From: Methanobacteriota archaeon
GTDB lineage: Archaea; Thermoplasmatota; Poseidoniia; Poseidoniales; Poseidoniaceae
Reading direction: 5' to 3'
Assembly: GCA_949514915.1 (NCBI GenBank)
Contig: CATFLP010000035.1
Location: 1-40,848 of the forward strand
Length of the DNA: 40,848 nt
Part shown: piece after piece, positions 13,886 to 19,187 of the stretch
Layout of the letters: every line of letters begins with the position of its first letter
Numbering within the stretch: position 1 is the stretch's first letter
Position numbers and translations under genes: made by a program
Notes under the pieces: model-generated
What the model saw: the letters and a program-made list of their open reading frames with translations, nothing else
Told to the model about the DNA's origin: nothing
The model's database searches: none

Positions 13886-14323
13886 TCAGCCTAACAGTAA
13901 CCATTTTTCTTTAGAGATCCTAAGAATTAATCCTTCAGATTCTGAAACTTCAATTACTTTTTCAAAATCGATTTCAAATTTATTTTTAACTAAAAATTTT
14001 TTTAAATCTTTTAAATAAATCTCTCCCTGTTCATTTGAAGAATTTTTTAAGATATAAGGTATAGATTTTTTTTCTTCAAATGCAGTTTTTTTAATCTCAG
14101 GCTTAATGTTAATTTTAGAAAAATCATCTCTTAATTCTTGAGGTATATTATTCAATGAAACTAGTCTATGTAATTCCTCAGTATCATTTGTCCTTCCAAT
14201 AATTTGTGGATTTATTTGAACTTCTCCACATCTAGTACATGAAAAATTAGATTTTTTATGCTTACCAAAAAAAAAGTCACAATCATTACATTTTATGATT
14301 AAATACAATGATGATTTAGACAT
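13886..14323 (-). CDS. Zinc-ribbon protein with helical C-terminal domain
   Basis: A 145-residue protein from the ATG at 14323 (a TTG three codons upstream is less likely). The N-terminus is a zinc ribbon (IIKCNDCDFFFGK...FSCTRCGEV) resembling the archaeal DUF1922/DUF5817 ribbon. A linker leads to a predicted winged-helix-like C-terminus (EIYLKDLKKFLVKNKFEIDFEKVIEVSESEGLI). The arrangement suggests a nucleic-acid-binding protein, but no family is named. It lies 10 bases behind the arginine-decarboxylase-fold gene. Confidence 0.65.
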   Translation of the reverse strand: MSKSSLYLIIKCNDCDFFFGKHKKSNFSCTRCGEVQINPQIIGRTNDTEELHRLVSLNNIPQELRDDFSKINIKPEIKKTAFEEKKSIPYILKNSSNEQGEIYLKDLKKFLVKNKFEIDFEKVIEVSESEGLILRISKEKWLLLG

Positions 14324-14333
14324 ATAAGACAAC

Positions 14334-14969
14334 TCATATGTTGAAATCTATATCTCCGTCTCTTTTAGGACCTCTTGGCATAGGAGATTTTGATTCTCTT
14401 TTATTTGGATTAATATCTAATGCTGAACGTGTAAGTCCCTTCCTAACTCTTCCCAATTGCTCTGAATGCTGAAAAGACATTGTTTCTGGCAGAATAAGAG
14501 CCGCTAATGCTACTCCATAATGGCCTTGTCCTGCCGTAACTTCATCTACAGCTATGTCAAATTCAATTACTTCTAAATCTCTACTAGCTAATTTATTTCG
14601 GAAATTTTTTCTTAGCAACTCATCCGTAGCTATTGAATCTGTTTTGGTTGAGATTGATGCTGTTATTGAACATTCATCACCTTCTGGAGTTTTACAATGA
14701 GCCCATGCAACTCCTGCAGATGCAATACCTCCATTGAAAGCATGCCCAATTGCCAGATGGCATTCAACTAAACTTCCCATAGGCAATAATTCTGGGGCTA
14801 TTGGTTCAAAACCCATAGGCAACATTGCTCCTTCAACTCTAATTAACCTAGCATCTCCAAGTCCTAACTCAACTAATCCTTGATCATATGCGTCTTCTTC
14901 GTTTTCACCCCATGGTGCTACAGCAGTCATTAACCATCCAGGACAAGCACTTGAATGAGGACCCCTCAT
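14334..14969 (-). CDS. Pyruvoyl-dependent arginine decarboxylase-fold protein lacking the cleavage site
   Basis: A 211-residue protein aligning over its whole core with archaeal PvlArgDC: AYDQGLVELGLGDARLIRV, then LLPMGSLV, then GGIASAGVAWAH. In the characterised family the self-cleaving Ser-Ser follows the LIRI/LVKV strand; here that place reads V-E-G-A (residues 45-48), with no serine. The glutamate-bearing strand (LIMEYEG in M. jannaschii, recalled from memory) reads SITASIST. Proenzyme cleavage and pyruvoyl formation therefore look impossible. The C-terminus carries an extra Arg/Lys-rich tail. Probably a non-catalytic or repurposed paralogue; distant fold similarity to another pyruvoyl family is less likely. 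Confidence 0.75.
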   Translation of the reverse strand: MRGPHSSACPGWLMTAVAPWGENEEDAYDQGLVELGLGDARLIRVEGAMLPMGFEPIAPELLPMGSLVECHLAIGHAFNGGIASAGVAWAHCKTPEGDECSITASISTKTDSIATDELLRKNFRNKLASRDLEVIEFDIAVDEVTAGQGHYGVALAALILPETMSFQHSEQLGRVRKGLTRSALDINPNKRESKSPMPRGPKRDGDIDFNI

Positions 14970-14994: not shown

Positions 14995-15360
14995 ATGAAT
15001 GCACCCACTATCACGTCATTCATGGAGTTTGAGAAATCCCAGGTAAAATATTTTATTTTTGTAACTCAAATTCTAATTATGGTAGTATCATTATACAAGG
15101 TAATTAATGAACCAAGTGAAAAATACTGGATTTTAGTTATTGTACTCTCATTATTAATATTCATATTCATTATTTCTATGTTTACCAATAAAACAAAAAA
15201 TAAAAATAATTTTTCCCCACAACTTAATTCGGATATGGCAAACGTTCAAAAACCAAATAATATTAATTCTAAAAATGAAGTAAATGGAAATAAAAACGAT
15301 GAATCGATAAATGAAAATATCCCTGATGTGTTAGATGAAGGTTGGGATTTACCACTCTAA
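14995..15360 (+). CDS. Small two-TM protein with Asn-rich tail
   Basis: A 121-residue protein with two hydrophobic helices (VKYFIFVTQILIMVVSLY; YWILVIVLSLLIFIFIISMF). A polar Asn/Lys-rich cytoplasmic-looking tail ends in LDEGWDLPL, a conserved-looking acidic/Trp terminus. No family was recognised. An in-frame ATG at 15022 is an alternative start. It is divergent from the decarboxylase-fold gene; its stop directly abuts that of fttA. Confidence 0.5.
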   Translation: MNAPTITSFMEFEKSQVKYFIFVTQILIMVVSLYKVINEPSEKYWILVIVLSLLIFIFIISMFTNKTKNKNNFSPQLNSDMANVQKPNNINSKNEVNGNKNDESINENIPDVLDEGWDLPL

Positions 15361-17265
15361 TCAAAACAACCTTATTGTTTCAAGATTTTGAGGAGAATAA
15401 GTCCTTGCTTTGAATTTTTCACGTAATGTTCTCCCTAATTCGCTACATTTTCTGTAGTCTCCATGATGACAAACAATAGAATATGGTCTTGGATTTAATT
15501 GATCTACGAAATCTAATAACTGTTTTCTATCAGAATGCCCGCTAAATCCATCAATTGTTACAAATTCACAATTTACTTCGATTGTTATAGTTTCTCCTTC
15601 GAAAAACATTTGAACTTCTCCAAACCCTTTTTGTAATCTTCTACCAATTGTTCCTTCTGCTTGATAGCCAACAAAACATAATGCATTCCTTTCATTTGCA
15701 GCCCAATGCCTAAAATAAGACATTACAGGCCCTCCATTTAACATTCCACTTGTTGCTAATACAATACAAGGAGATGGATCACTCAAGATTGATTCTCTCA
15801 TTTCTCTTCCTTGTACTTTACGGAACCATGATGCACTAAATGGATTATCTTCAGAATTAGTTTGTATTGAATTTCTTAAATCTCTTGTTAAATAATCTGG
15901 GTGTGATGCATGTATTGCTGTCGCCTCTTGTATCATCCCATCTAAATAAACCGAACATGGTTCAATATCACCACTTCTAAATAACTCATCAATTGCAATC
16001 ATAACTTCTTGACTTCTTCCAACTGCGAAAACGGGTAAAATAATTTTACCATTACGATTAATTGTTCTTTTAATAATCTCTTGTAATTCAGAAGTTGCTT
16101 CTATTCTAGATGGCTGGAAATCTCCTTGTGCGCCATAAGTTGATTCTATTACTAAAGTTTCACAACGGGGGAATTTTACATTTGCTGCATCAAAAAGCCA
16201 ACTTTTCTCAAATTTTGTATCTCCCGTGAAAACAATATTATGTTTTCCTTCTCCAATATGGAAATGACATGCAGAAGAACCTAATATATGTCCTGCATTT
16301 GTCATTGTAAGTTTGATATCAGGCGTGATATCTGTAGTTTCTTTCCAATTAACATCAATTACATGCTTCATTGCTTGCCTAACATGTTCCATTTCATAAG
16401 GAGGTGATTTACCCTCCATACCTGCAACTTTCAAATAATCAGATTGTAACATCAACATCAAATCTCTTGTTGGCGGAGTACAATAAACAGGCCCTTTATA
16501 TCCAAATTTGAATAAAATTGGCAACATACCTGCATGATCTAAATGAGCGTGCGTTAATACAACTGCATCTAATTTCTCTAGAGGCAATGCTTCAGGAGCA
16601 TTGAAAAAAGGAAGAGGATCTGTAGATGAGGCAATATTTACACCTACATCTATCATAACCCTAGATTCATTAGTTGTTATCAAATGACATGCCCTACCTA
16701 CTTCTCTATAGGAGCCAAGTGCTGTTAATCTAGCCCATGAATTACCTGCTAATTTAGGCCTGTAAATATTTCTTCCAAAGTCACGTAATAATTTTCTTCT
16801 TTCATCAGCTGTTGATTTTCTAAAACCACGAATGTCATAAACAGTTTTACTTTGAAGTGCAGGAGTTCTTTCTACTTTAACCAACCAACCAATTTTATCT
16901 CTTAATTTATTGATATTTTCTCCTCTCCTTCCAACTGCAGTACCTGGATCCTCGCAAGTAAGTATTAATTCACATAAACAAGGGTCAAAGTGCATACTTG
17001 TTATTCCTGCTTCTTCTGGAATTATTGATCTAATGTACTCAAGCGAATCTTCTTCAGAGCATAATATACTTTCATCTGGCCTAATTACAACTCTTCTTTT
17101 TATTGATTTTGCAATTTCTCCTGTTAAACCACTACCTGAACCGAATCGATCTGGATTCTTAGTAATTATAGAAACTGTTGCTGCCTCTAAATCTATTTTA
17201 TAATCGATATCTTTTGGTATCATTTTTGCAATTTTAGTTTTTACCTCTTGGAAACTAAGTCTCAT
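15361..17265 (-). CDS. fttA: Transcription termination factor FttA / aCPSF1 (KH-MBL-beta-CASP nuclease)
   Basis: A 634-residue protein, the usual size for archaeal aCPSF1. Two N-terminal KH-type domains (second with GRRGENI at 112-118) precede a metallo-beta-lactamase core with THAHLDHAG (239-244 HAHLDH), NAGHILGSS and FTGDTKF. A beta-CASP domain (PVFAVGRSQE, ATSGMLNGGP) and the final DGFSGHSDR and CHHGD motifs follow. All zinc ligands look intact. FttA cuts nascent RNA 3' ends and terminates archaeal transcription. A strong SD (AAGGTGAT) lies three bases before the ATG, and a TATA-containing palindrome upstream. Its stop abuts the converging gene. Confidence 0.96.
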   Translation of the reverse strand: MRLSFQEVKTKIAKMIPKDIDYKIDLEAATVSIITKNPDRFGSGSGLTGEIAKSIKRRVVIRPDESILCSEEDSLEYIRSIIPEEAGITSMHFDPCLCELILTCEDPGTAVGRRGENINKLRDKIGWLVKVERTPALQSKTVYDIRGFRKSTADERRKLLRDFGRNIYRPKLAGNSWARLTALGSYREVGRACHLITTNESRVMIDVGVNIASSTDPLPFFNAPEALPLEKLDAVVLTHAHLDHAGMLPILFKFGYKGPVYCTPPTRDLMLMLQSDYLKVAGMEGKSPPYEMEHVRQAMKHVIDVNWKETTDITPDIKLTMTNAGHILGSSACHFHIGEGKHNIVFTGDTKFEKSWLFDAANVKFPRCETLVIESTYGAQGDFQPSRIEATSELQEIIKRTINRNGKIILPVFAVGRSQEVMIAIDELFRSGDIEPCSVYLDGMIQEATAIHASHPDYLTRDLRNSIQTNSEDNPFSASWFRKVQGREMRESILSDPSPCIVLATSGMLNGGPVMSYFRHWAANERNALCFVGYQAEGTIGRRLQKGFGEVQMFFEGETITIEVNCEFVTIDGFSGHSDRKQLLDFVDQLNPRPYSIVCHHGDYRKCSELGRTLREKFKARTYSPQNLETIRLF

Positions 17266-17268
17266 TTT

Positions 17269-17276
17269 ATCACCTT
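17269..17276 (-). promoter_or_regulatory. Shine-Dalgarno site of fttA
   Basis: AAGGTGAT on the minus strand, closely matching the anti-SD complement GGAGGTGATC, three bases before the ATG at 17265. Fixes the fttA start. Confidence 0.65.
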
Positions 17277-17291
17277 CCCCTATTGAAACCC

Positions 17292-17305
17292 TACTCTATA
17301 GAGTA
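17292..17305. promoter_or_regulatory. 14-bp perfect palindrome with TATA core upstream of fttA
   Basis: tactctatagagta is a perfect inverted repeat centred about 33 bases before the fttA ATG. The core CTATAG could be the TATA element of a promoter giving a short leader, with the symmetric flanks forming an operator. Alternatively chance. Confidence 0.4.
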
Positions 17306-17333
17306 AGCCCTAAAGGCGGGCCAGCCGGGAAAA

Positions 17334-17963
17334 TTATTTTAATGAAGCAATTATTTTGTCTACTTCATCATCGGATAGTTGAACGAAACCTTCTGATTCA
17401 GTAATATATGCTAAATCCATTCCGTTCCCTGATGCTGCATCTCTTTGACCTGAAGCTAGTAATGCCCTAGCTGCTAATTTAATAGCATCATTCTTTTGCA
17501 TTCCATCTCTGAAACCATCTTCTAAAACACCGTACATATATGGAGAACCTGAACCTGTTGCACAATAAACATCAGGGATTGAGCCTCCTGCACCATCAAT
17601 GCTGTATACACTAGGCCCTGAATCATCAACACCAACAATTAGTAATTGTACCCAATAAGGTCTTCCTAACAATATATTTGCAGTTAATGTTGCTGCACCT
17701 TTTACTGTCATAGTATGACCTCTTTTTAATTGAAATAGTGTTGTTTCTGCATTCAAAGTTCGCGATAAACTTTGTGCATGTCCAACTAATCCTGCAGTAG
17801 TTAATGCAAGATTAGGGCCTATTTTGAATAATTTTTGTACACTTTTATTTGCAATGAAATGACCCATTGTTGCTCTATGATCTGCACCAACAACAACTCC
17901 GCCATCATAACAAATACCCAAAGTGCTAGTTCCAGTCTTCAGTTTGTCCATACTTGATTCCAT
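17334..17963 (-). CDS. psmB: 20S proteasome beta subunit
   Basis: A 209-residue Ntn hydrolase. An 11-residue propeptide (MESSMDKLKTG) precedes the catalytic N-terminal threonine (G|TSTLGI). The family's GADHRAT, KLFKI and ATGSGSPYMYGVLE segments are present, as is the SGNGMDL stretch near the end. Mature beta subunits form the inner proteolytic rings of the 20S proteasome. The start is the ATG at 17963; the GTG at 17972 lies inside the SD. It is transcribed ahead of fttA with 68 bases between, where fttA seems to have its own promoter. Confidence 0.96.
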   Translation of the reverse strand: MESSMDKLKTGTSTLGICYDGGVVVGADHRATMGHFIANKSVQKLFKIGPNLALTTAGLVGHAQSLSRTLNAETTLFQLKRGHTMTVKGAATLTANILLGRPYWVQLLIVGVDDSGPSVYSIDGAGGSIPDVYCATGSGSPYMYGVLEDGFRDGMQKNDAIKLAARALLASGQRDAASGNGMDLAYITESEGFVQLSDDEVDKIIASLK

Positions 17964-17968
17964 TATAT

Positions 17969-17973
17969 TCACC
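17969..17973 (-). promoter_or_regulatory. Ribosome binding site deciding the psmB start
   Basis: GGTGA on the minus strand, five bases upstream of ATG 17963. The competing GTG start at 17972 is part of this site, so it is unlikely to be the true start. Confidence 0.55.
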
Positions 17974-18006
17974 AGAACGAGTCCATAATACTAGGATGCT
18001 CTAATA

Positions 18007-18024
18007 CACCCCTGTACAGAGGTG
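18007..18024. promoter_or_regulatory. 18-bp imperfect palindrome upstream of psmB
   Basis: cacccctgtacagaggtg reads the same on both strands except for one mismatched pair, with a perfect CTGTACAG core at 18012-18019. It lies in the 150-base divergent region, about 45-60 bases upstream of the psmB ATG and about 90 from the gene at 18114. Candidate operator for a dimeric regulator. Confidence 0.35.
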
Positions 18025-18113
18025 GTTTATCAACCCGACGAATAAAGTTATATTAAAAACACAAATTTTAGACTTAATTTTACAAAAGAATTGAAGACCA
18101 CCAACAAAGCAGG

Positions 18114-18620
18114 ATGGTTGTGGATGAAGGTAAACAAGCAAAACTTCCATTTGACGAAGATGACATAAATGCATTATTTGATGCAGATGAGAAAATAGAA
18201 ACTTCAAAAATAAAACCATTTTCGCAAGCACCCCTAAAAGGAGTGGTTATGCCTAGCCTTAACAAAACAAATCAGCCAGTTAAAAAAACTAACATCATTT
18301 ACCATAATTTAGAAGAATTATATCCAGATGCAAATGTTTCCAACAATGAAGGATTTATTATCCATAGAGCAAATCTTTTAGGAGTAAATGGAATTTTTCA
18401 ATTATTTGATTGGGCATCTGATGGAGATATCAGCGTAGTTGATTTAAAAGACATATTATCTGAAGATGAAGTTCTTTCTCAAATTGTAAATAGATTAAAT
18501 GAATTCATCATTCATGATCTCGGAGGGGAAATCCTTCAACTCTCTGAAACAAGATTACTAGTTTTACCACCTTCATGTAAAGGAATGAAAGGCCTTGAAG
18601 ATGAAGCATTTGTGAAATGA
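18114..18620 (+). CDS. Conserved hypothetical protein upstream of ZPR1
   Basis: A 168-residue soluble protein, not recognised. It begins with an acidic segment (LPFDEDDINALFDADEKIE), has a Pro/Lys-rich linker, then a folded part (FIIHRANLLGVNGIFQLFDWASDGD...) ending with a hydrophobic strand (LLVLPPSCKGM). It sits nine bases upstream of the ZPR1 gene, so it is probably co-translated. A TATA-like ttatattaaaa lies about 60 bases before the ATG. Confidence 0.6.
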   Translation: MVVDEGKQAKLPFDEDDINALFDADEKIETSKIKPFSQAPLKGVVMPSLNKTNQPVKKTNIIYHNLEELYPDANVSNNEGFIIHRANLLGVNGIFQLFDWASDGDISVVDLKDILSEDEVLSQIVNRLNEFIIHDLGGEILQLSETRLLVLPPSCKGMKGLEDEAFVK

Positions 18621-18629
18621 GGACTAAAC

Positions 18630-19187
18630 ATGGAATCACCAATGGAAATGTCTTGCCCTGTTTGCGGCGATGAAAAAAGTTTGAAGATGATAGCACATTC
18701 AACTGAAATTGCGTATTTCGGAGAACACACACAAATCACACTAACTTGTAGCAGTTGCGGACTTAGGCAAACAGATTTTATTCCTGCTGAAGGGAAAATA
18801 CCAGGTGTTTGGACATTAAAACTTGATTCTTTAGAAAGCCTAAATGCCAGAGTAGTAAGAGGTTCAAAATGCACTATAGAAATTCCTGAATTAGAATTAG
18901 GAGTATATCCAGGAGTTCATTCATCAGGGTATGTTTCAAATGTAGAAGGAGTACTTAATAGGTTCAAAGATGCAATAAATATAACAAAAAATCAACTTAT
19001 GAGCGATGAGTTAAGTGAATTAAACAAATGTAATTTTCTTATAGAATCTTTAAACAATACAATAAATGGCTCAAATAAAGAGGTTCTGACACTTATTTTT
19101 TCAGATCCAATGGGTCATTCTAAAATTTTACATGATAAAGCAACATTTAGAGAATTAACTCCTGATGAAATTGAAAATCTATCCTAG
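18630..19187 (+). CDS. zpr1: ZPR1-family zinc-finger protein
   Basis: A 185-residue protein corresponding to a single ZPR1 module, as in archaea. It has the four-Cys zinc finger (CPVCG...TCSSCGLRQTD) with the intervening TEIAYFGEHTQ, then the beta domain with VVRGSKCTIEIPELELGVYPG and the SNVEGVLNRF helix. Eukaryotic ZPR1 binds and helps fold eEF1A; the archaeal function is presumed similar (aEF1A) but not shown. The last nine bases overlap the converging MazG-like gene. Confidence 0.88.
   Translation: MESPMEMSCPVCGDEKSLKMIAHSTEIAYFGEHTQITLTCSSCGLRQTDFIPAEGKIPGVWTLKLDSLESLNARVVRGSKCTIEIPELELGVYPGVHSSGYVSNVEGVLNRFKDAINITKNQLMSDELSELNKCNFLIESLNNTINGSNKEVLTLIFSDPMGHSKILHDKATFRELTPDEIENLS

Follow-up and report, generated by a model that had tools for sequence, protein, structure and literature searches.

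A homolog of archaeal pyruvoyl-dependent arginine decarboxylase (PvlArgDC) that lacks the residues for self-processing and catalysis is kept as an intact gene in the Poseidoniales (Marine Group II, archaea common in the ocean). It is encoded in the window, that is, the whole 40,848-nucleotide stretch analyzed here (contig CATFLP010000035.1 of assembly GCA_949514915.1), next to a gene for a predicted zinc-ribbon/winged-helix protein. We give an even chance to a scheme in which an unrelated enzyme, SpeDA, took over arginine decarboxylation and a dead PvlArgDC of the short type would now act as a noncatalytic oligomeric partner of the zinc-ribbon/winged-helix protein. Enzymes whose reaction passes to an unrelated enzyme usually disappear; this one has been retained, strongly constrained and without catalytic residues. 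The case separates the enzymatic from the nonenzymatic role of PvlArgDC and provides a testable candidate for the latter.

Gene, family, and fold

The open reading frame at positions 14334 to 14969 (reverse strand) has an ATG start, is free of frameshifts, and encodes 211 amino acids. Its product passes the curated gathering cutoff of the Pfam arginine decarboxylase family (PF01862, 28.9 bits by hmmscan versus 22.7) and fails the equivalog model for functional PvlArgDC (TIGR00286, 19.6 bits versus 106.95). An AF2 model computed from 33 window and relative sequences has a mean pLDDT of 68.6, the disordered tail included, with low confidence in the loop at residues 41 to 60 (pLDDT 52 to 67). The PvlArgDC fold assigned to this model is secure because the Methanocaldococcus jannaschii PvlArgDC structures (1n2m and 2qqd) are its sole PDB matches at E ≤ 0.001, among them 1n2m_F (E = 1.7e−12, TM score of 0.87 on the target). 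The initial annotation, which had the protein closely following archaeal PvlArgDC, overstated the likeness, given the low TIGR00286 score and an identity of 22 to 23% in the structural alignment with the M. jannaschii enzyme.

The Pfam match is a practical warning for annotation, since proteins like this one would be misread as polyamine enzymes in metagenomes of an abundant marine group. Annotation will also be inconsistent, because most Poseidoniales copies go undetected in a whole-genome PF01862 scan (6 of 117 order genomes score above the cutoff) although the window protein itself passes by hmmscan.

Loss of the catalytic residues

Alignment with M. jannaschii PvlArgDC places E46-G47 (codons at 14829 to 14834, reverse strand) at the self-cleavage pair Ser52-Ser53, in the segment RLIRVEGAMLP (residues 41 to 51) that falls within positions 14815 to 14850. 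The loop is one residue longer than that of PvlArgDC (VEGAMLP versus ISSIMPP), so Ser53 lies opposite either Gly47 or Ala48. Catalytic Asn47 is replaced by R41 (14847 to 14849, reverse strand), an arginine in all relatives. Asn47 supports the self-processing of PvlArgDC, and the N47A mutation lowers activity 500-fold (PMC3975893). The strand bearing the catalytic glutamate is altered too, as had been noticed at the outset: Glu109 is replaced by S105 (14655 to 14657, reverse strand), with Thr or Ser at this position in all relatives.

The site was readable in 80 distinct relatives, and none of them has Ser, Thr, or Cys at either cleavage position, so the loss of the Ser-Ser pair is real and not an isolated mutation. 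All 80 follow the pattern [E/Q/K/H/R]-G-A-[M/F]-L-P, in which the Gly and the next Ala are invariant and the first residue varies; the Glu-Gly of the window protein is therefore conserved only as x-Gly. Conservation across many independent assemblies rules out a sequencing or assembly error. A Ser-Ser at residues 6 and 7 of the protein lies in the disordered N terminus, about 40 residues from the cleavage site, and is missing in relatives L028 to L038. Every non-Poseidoniales Thermoplasmatota homolog that was read across both sites retains the Ser-Ser pair and the Glu. Because both serines, Asn47, and Glu109 are all lost, the sequence is not expected to support catalysis by the known pyruvoyl mechanism.

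Asp35 of the PvlArgDC substrate pocket is kept as D29 (14883 to 14885, reverse strand), which is invariant in Poseidoniales relatives. With the Asp retained and an invariant Arg newly placed near the former pocket, the protein may have preserved a guanidinium sensor, or its own Arg may fill the pocket.

Searches with PF01862 found no canonical, serine-bearing PvlArgDC in the window's genome, whose assembly is 85% complete, or in 117 order genomes. Complete and near-complete relatives likewise lack a canonical copy. Most pseudoenzyme copies escaped these genome scans too; the same scan finds canonical copies in 238 of 285 genomes of the phylum, so a canonical copy in the Poseidoniales would have shown. 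The initial annotation had offered two roles for the protein, and the first, regulation of a true paralog in mixed trimers, fails because no serine-bearing paralog was found in the order. The second, a new role, still stands.

Distribution and constraint

The pseudoenzyme gene is carried by 128 of the family's 146 genomes, including all 21 of high quality, at one copy per genome by protein search (two partial matches in a few fragmented assemblies). Of the genera sampled in the second Poseidoniales family, four carry it and the others yielded no copy. Between close relatives, dN/dS ranges from 0.006 to 0.09, indicating strong purifying selection. Residues 164 to 211 (14337 to 14480, reverse strand) form a disordered C-terminal tail in the AF2 model, and alignment shows that canonical PvlArgDC lacks it. 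The tail ends in DFNI (14337 to 14348, reverse strand), and its motif, DFx[L/I/F], or a close variant is found at the tip in 80 of 82 relatives. No convincing case of this C-terminal tip was seen in other proteins of the window or of the loci. Judged by its sequence conservation, the pseudoenzyme is a maintained protein and not a relic, which bears out the earlier reading of an intact gene that encodes an inactivated PvlArgDC.

Many residues, many of them polar, are invariant in the Poseidoniales protein and not in canonical PvlArgDC. Together with the strong purifying selection, they could point to a new enzyme with another active site built from Poseidoniales-only invariants (E69, C70, H71, W89, E96, D98, R130, D131, E133, D142, and E143). 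However, these residues are scattered along the chain and form no known catalytic motif, and such conservation fits binding surfaces too; we regard a new enzyme as unlikely.

Probable arginine decarboxylation by SpeDA

Known TiaS members use agmatine, and TiaS homologs are present in 12 of 12 genomes, all scoring below the model's strict cutoff, as did named archaeal controls. A SpeD-like gene is found in 110 of 117 Poseidoniales genomes, and the SpeD-like protein of the window's genome passes the PF02675 cutoff (56.4 bits versus 25). It is part of a 434-amino-acid fusion of SpeD-like and deoxyhypusine-synthase-like (SpeY) domains (L134:1940-3244, G000:C105), encoded downstream of speB, an agmatinase-family (arginase-family) gene. 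The open frame of this gene is also long in several other genera, which suggests that they have the fusion too, and one genome (G011) carries speD and speY as two separate genes (L137). In other Poseidoniales, the gene set with speB and speY encodes SpeDA, a SpeD homolog that in assays decarboxylated arginine and lacked AdoMetDC function (PMC10407285). Gene arrangement makes it most likely that SpeDA also decarboxylates arginine in the window's genome, the assayed proteins being those of other Poseidoniales. Replacement of PvlArgDC by SpeDA could explain how the serines were lost, but would not by itself account for the retention of the protein.

In trypanosomes, decarboxylases are activated by prozymes, and known prozymes are paralogs of the enzymes that they activate. 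The pseudoenzyme might similarly bind and stimulate SpeDA, an arginine decarboxylase of another fold, and most genomes do carry both it and a SpeD-like gene. In vitro, the SpeDA of Poseidoniales is a weak enzyme (Km of 2.8 mM, kcat/Km of 180 per M per s; PMC10407285), which is how it might behave in the absence of a partner. Yet the pseudoenzyme is not a paralog of SpeDA, the two genes do not adjoin, and genera without the pseudoenzyme keep the SpeD-like gene, all of which makes such an activator improbable.

A conserved partner gene for a predicted zinc-ribbon/winged-helix protein

The partner gene (13886 to 14332, reverse strand; start codon either the TTG at 14332 or the ATG at 14323) begins one base past the pseudoenzyme stop. 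The two genes adjoin in nearly all relatives whose flank reaches the partner, in agreement with the coupling proposed in the initial annotation. Its protein has four invariant Cys, and the model (pLDDT 90.6) predicts an N-terminal zinc ribbon and a C-terminal winged helix. The modeled ribbon resembles small archaeal 30S zinc-ribbon proteins and the winged helix those of MCM8 and archaeal Rpa2, likenesses that are suggestive only (best Foldseek E value of 0.0086). This uncharacterized gene is widespread in Thermoplasmatota and was found in 112 of the 117 order genomes. A literature search returned no paper on DUF5817 (see below) or linking arginine decarboxylase with zinc-ribbon proteins, and nothing relevant on an arginine decarboxylase pseudoenzyme.

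Thermoplasmatota PvlArgDC comes in two kinds (L139 to L171 and L188). The long type (∼180 amino acids) has Glu at the Asp35 position and no zinc-ribbon gene within about 1.5 kb of any copy, while the short type (∼155 amino acids) has a zinc-ribbon neighbor. Intact short-type genes in other Thermoplasmatota are followed directly downstream by the zinc-ribbon/winged-helix gene at 48 of 57 loci, with a median spacing of 11 bp between matched stretches, and this pairing was independently checked. Four of six partners tested from canonical short-type loci pass the cutoff for DUF5817 (PF19134); the window's zinc-ribbon protein has no DUF5817 match above the curated cutoff. Within the class, the sister lineage (f3) carries long-type PvlArgDC and gave no SpeD match. 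As intact short-type loci share it, the pairing is older than the loss of activity, and synteny, along with profile scores, argues that the window protein is an ortholog of short-type PvlArgDC. In the tree, the Poseidoniales proteins form one clade, weakly attached on a very long stem. The same downstream gene at 48 of 57 intact loci therefore points to an ancestral operon whose enzyme became a pseudoenzyme and gained a new tail.

Upstream of the pseudoenzyme, positions 15361 to 19184 hold aCPSF1, a proteasome beta subunit, and two small, divergently oriented genes; most Poseidoniales, though not all, share this neighborhood. The gap that separates the pseudoenzyme from aCPSF1 holds an oppositely oriented gene for a small predicted membrane protein (14995 to 15360, forward strand) that only the closest relatives share. 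The aCPSF1/proteasome neighborhood was rejected as a functional unit: it was not seen in the stretches analyzed at canonical loci and is rearranged within the Poseidoniales.

At 15 loci from seven genera, the pseudoenzyme is absent and the zinc-ribbon gene is still there. In these streamlined genera (L191 to L205), the zinc-ribbon gene sits just downstream of aCPSF1 at 14 of the 15 loci, with the pseudoenzyme gone from between the two. Upstream of the zinc-ribbon gene, profile searches and open reading frame listings revealed no concealed, diverged pseudoenzyme at any of the 15. The zinc-ribbon gene can thus work alone, and its persistence without the pseudoenzyme is the main weakness of the scheme that we favor.

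A stand-alone ligand sensor, an arginine- or agmatine-binding protein signaling without the zinc-ribbon protein, would account for the invariant Asp35 equivalent; the conserved coupling with the zinc-ribbon gene argues against it, as does the invariant Arg41, which may block ligand from the former pocket, and we think it improbable as well. A functionless decaying relic or assembly error, which would fit the absence from part of the second family, is refuted by an intact, strongly constrained gene across many independent assemblies with dN/dS far below 1.

Proposed role

The strict conservation of the pseudoenzyme beside the zinc-ribbon gene suggests a second, nonenzymatic job, and the retained operon partner, the strong constraint, and the new tail together suggest a noncatalytic oligomeric subunit. 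In the favored scheme, SpeDA would first have taken over arginine decarboxylation. The self-processing serines, Asn47, and Glu109 would then have disappeared from PvlArgDC, and the resulting pseudoenzyme would have gained the disordered tail with the DFx[L/I/F] tip. It may have been kept as an unprocessed, noncatalytic scaffold, probably a trimer (the AF2 models are of the monomer), that perhaps still senses a guanidinium ligand through Asp29. This scaffold would bind the zinc-ribbon/winged-helix protein, and its tail would bind a further partner.

More tentatively, a structural role with the zinc-ribbon/winged-helix neighbor may predate the loss of activity, with the Poseidoniales keeping only that role. 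In that case, the two proteins would make up an unrecognized archaeal regulatory complex linking an arginine- or agmatine-binding oligomer to nucleic acid or the ribosome; we consider this possible but doubtful.

Comparison with known systems

Like the trypanosome AdoMetDC prozyme, the pseudoenzyme is a catalytically dead decarboxylase homolog under selection; the prozyme is a paralog that pairs with a living enzyme, whereas no living paralog was found here. SpeDA, which has a homologous gene in the window's genome, supplies the reaction that PvlArgDC would perform, but it differs from the pseudoenzyme in fold and family and is encoded elsewhere, beside the agmatinase-family gene. The protein encoded downstream of canonical short-type PvlArgDC matches DUF5817; its Poseidoniales counterpart has diverged too far to reach the Pfam cutoff, and a joint profile and shared position are its only links to the family. 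Compared with M. jannaschii PvlArgDC (PF01862; 1mt1, 1n2m, and 2qqd), the window protein shares the fold, Asp35, and overall core length and differs in lacking Ser-Ser, Asn47, and Glu109, in the extra loop residue, and in the added tail with its conserved tip. With the short-type PvlArgDC loci, it shares the zinc-ribbon gene as its pair partner.
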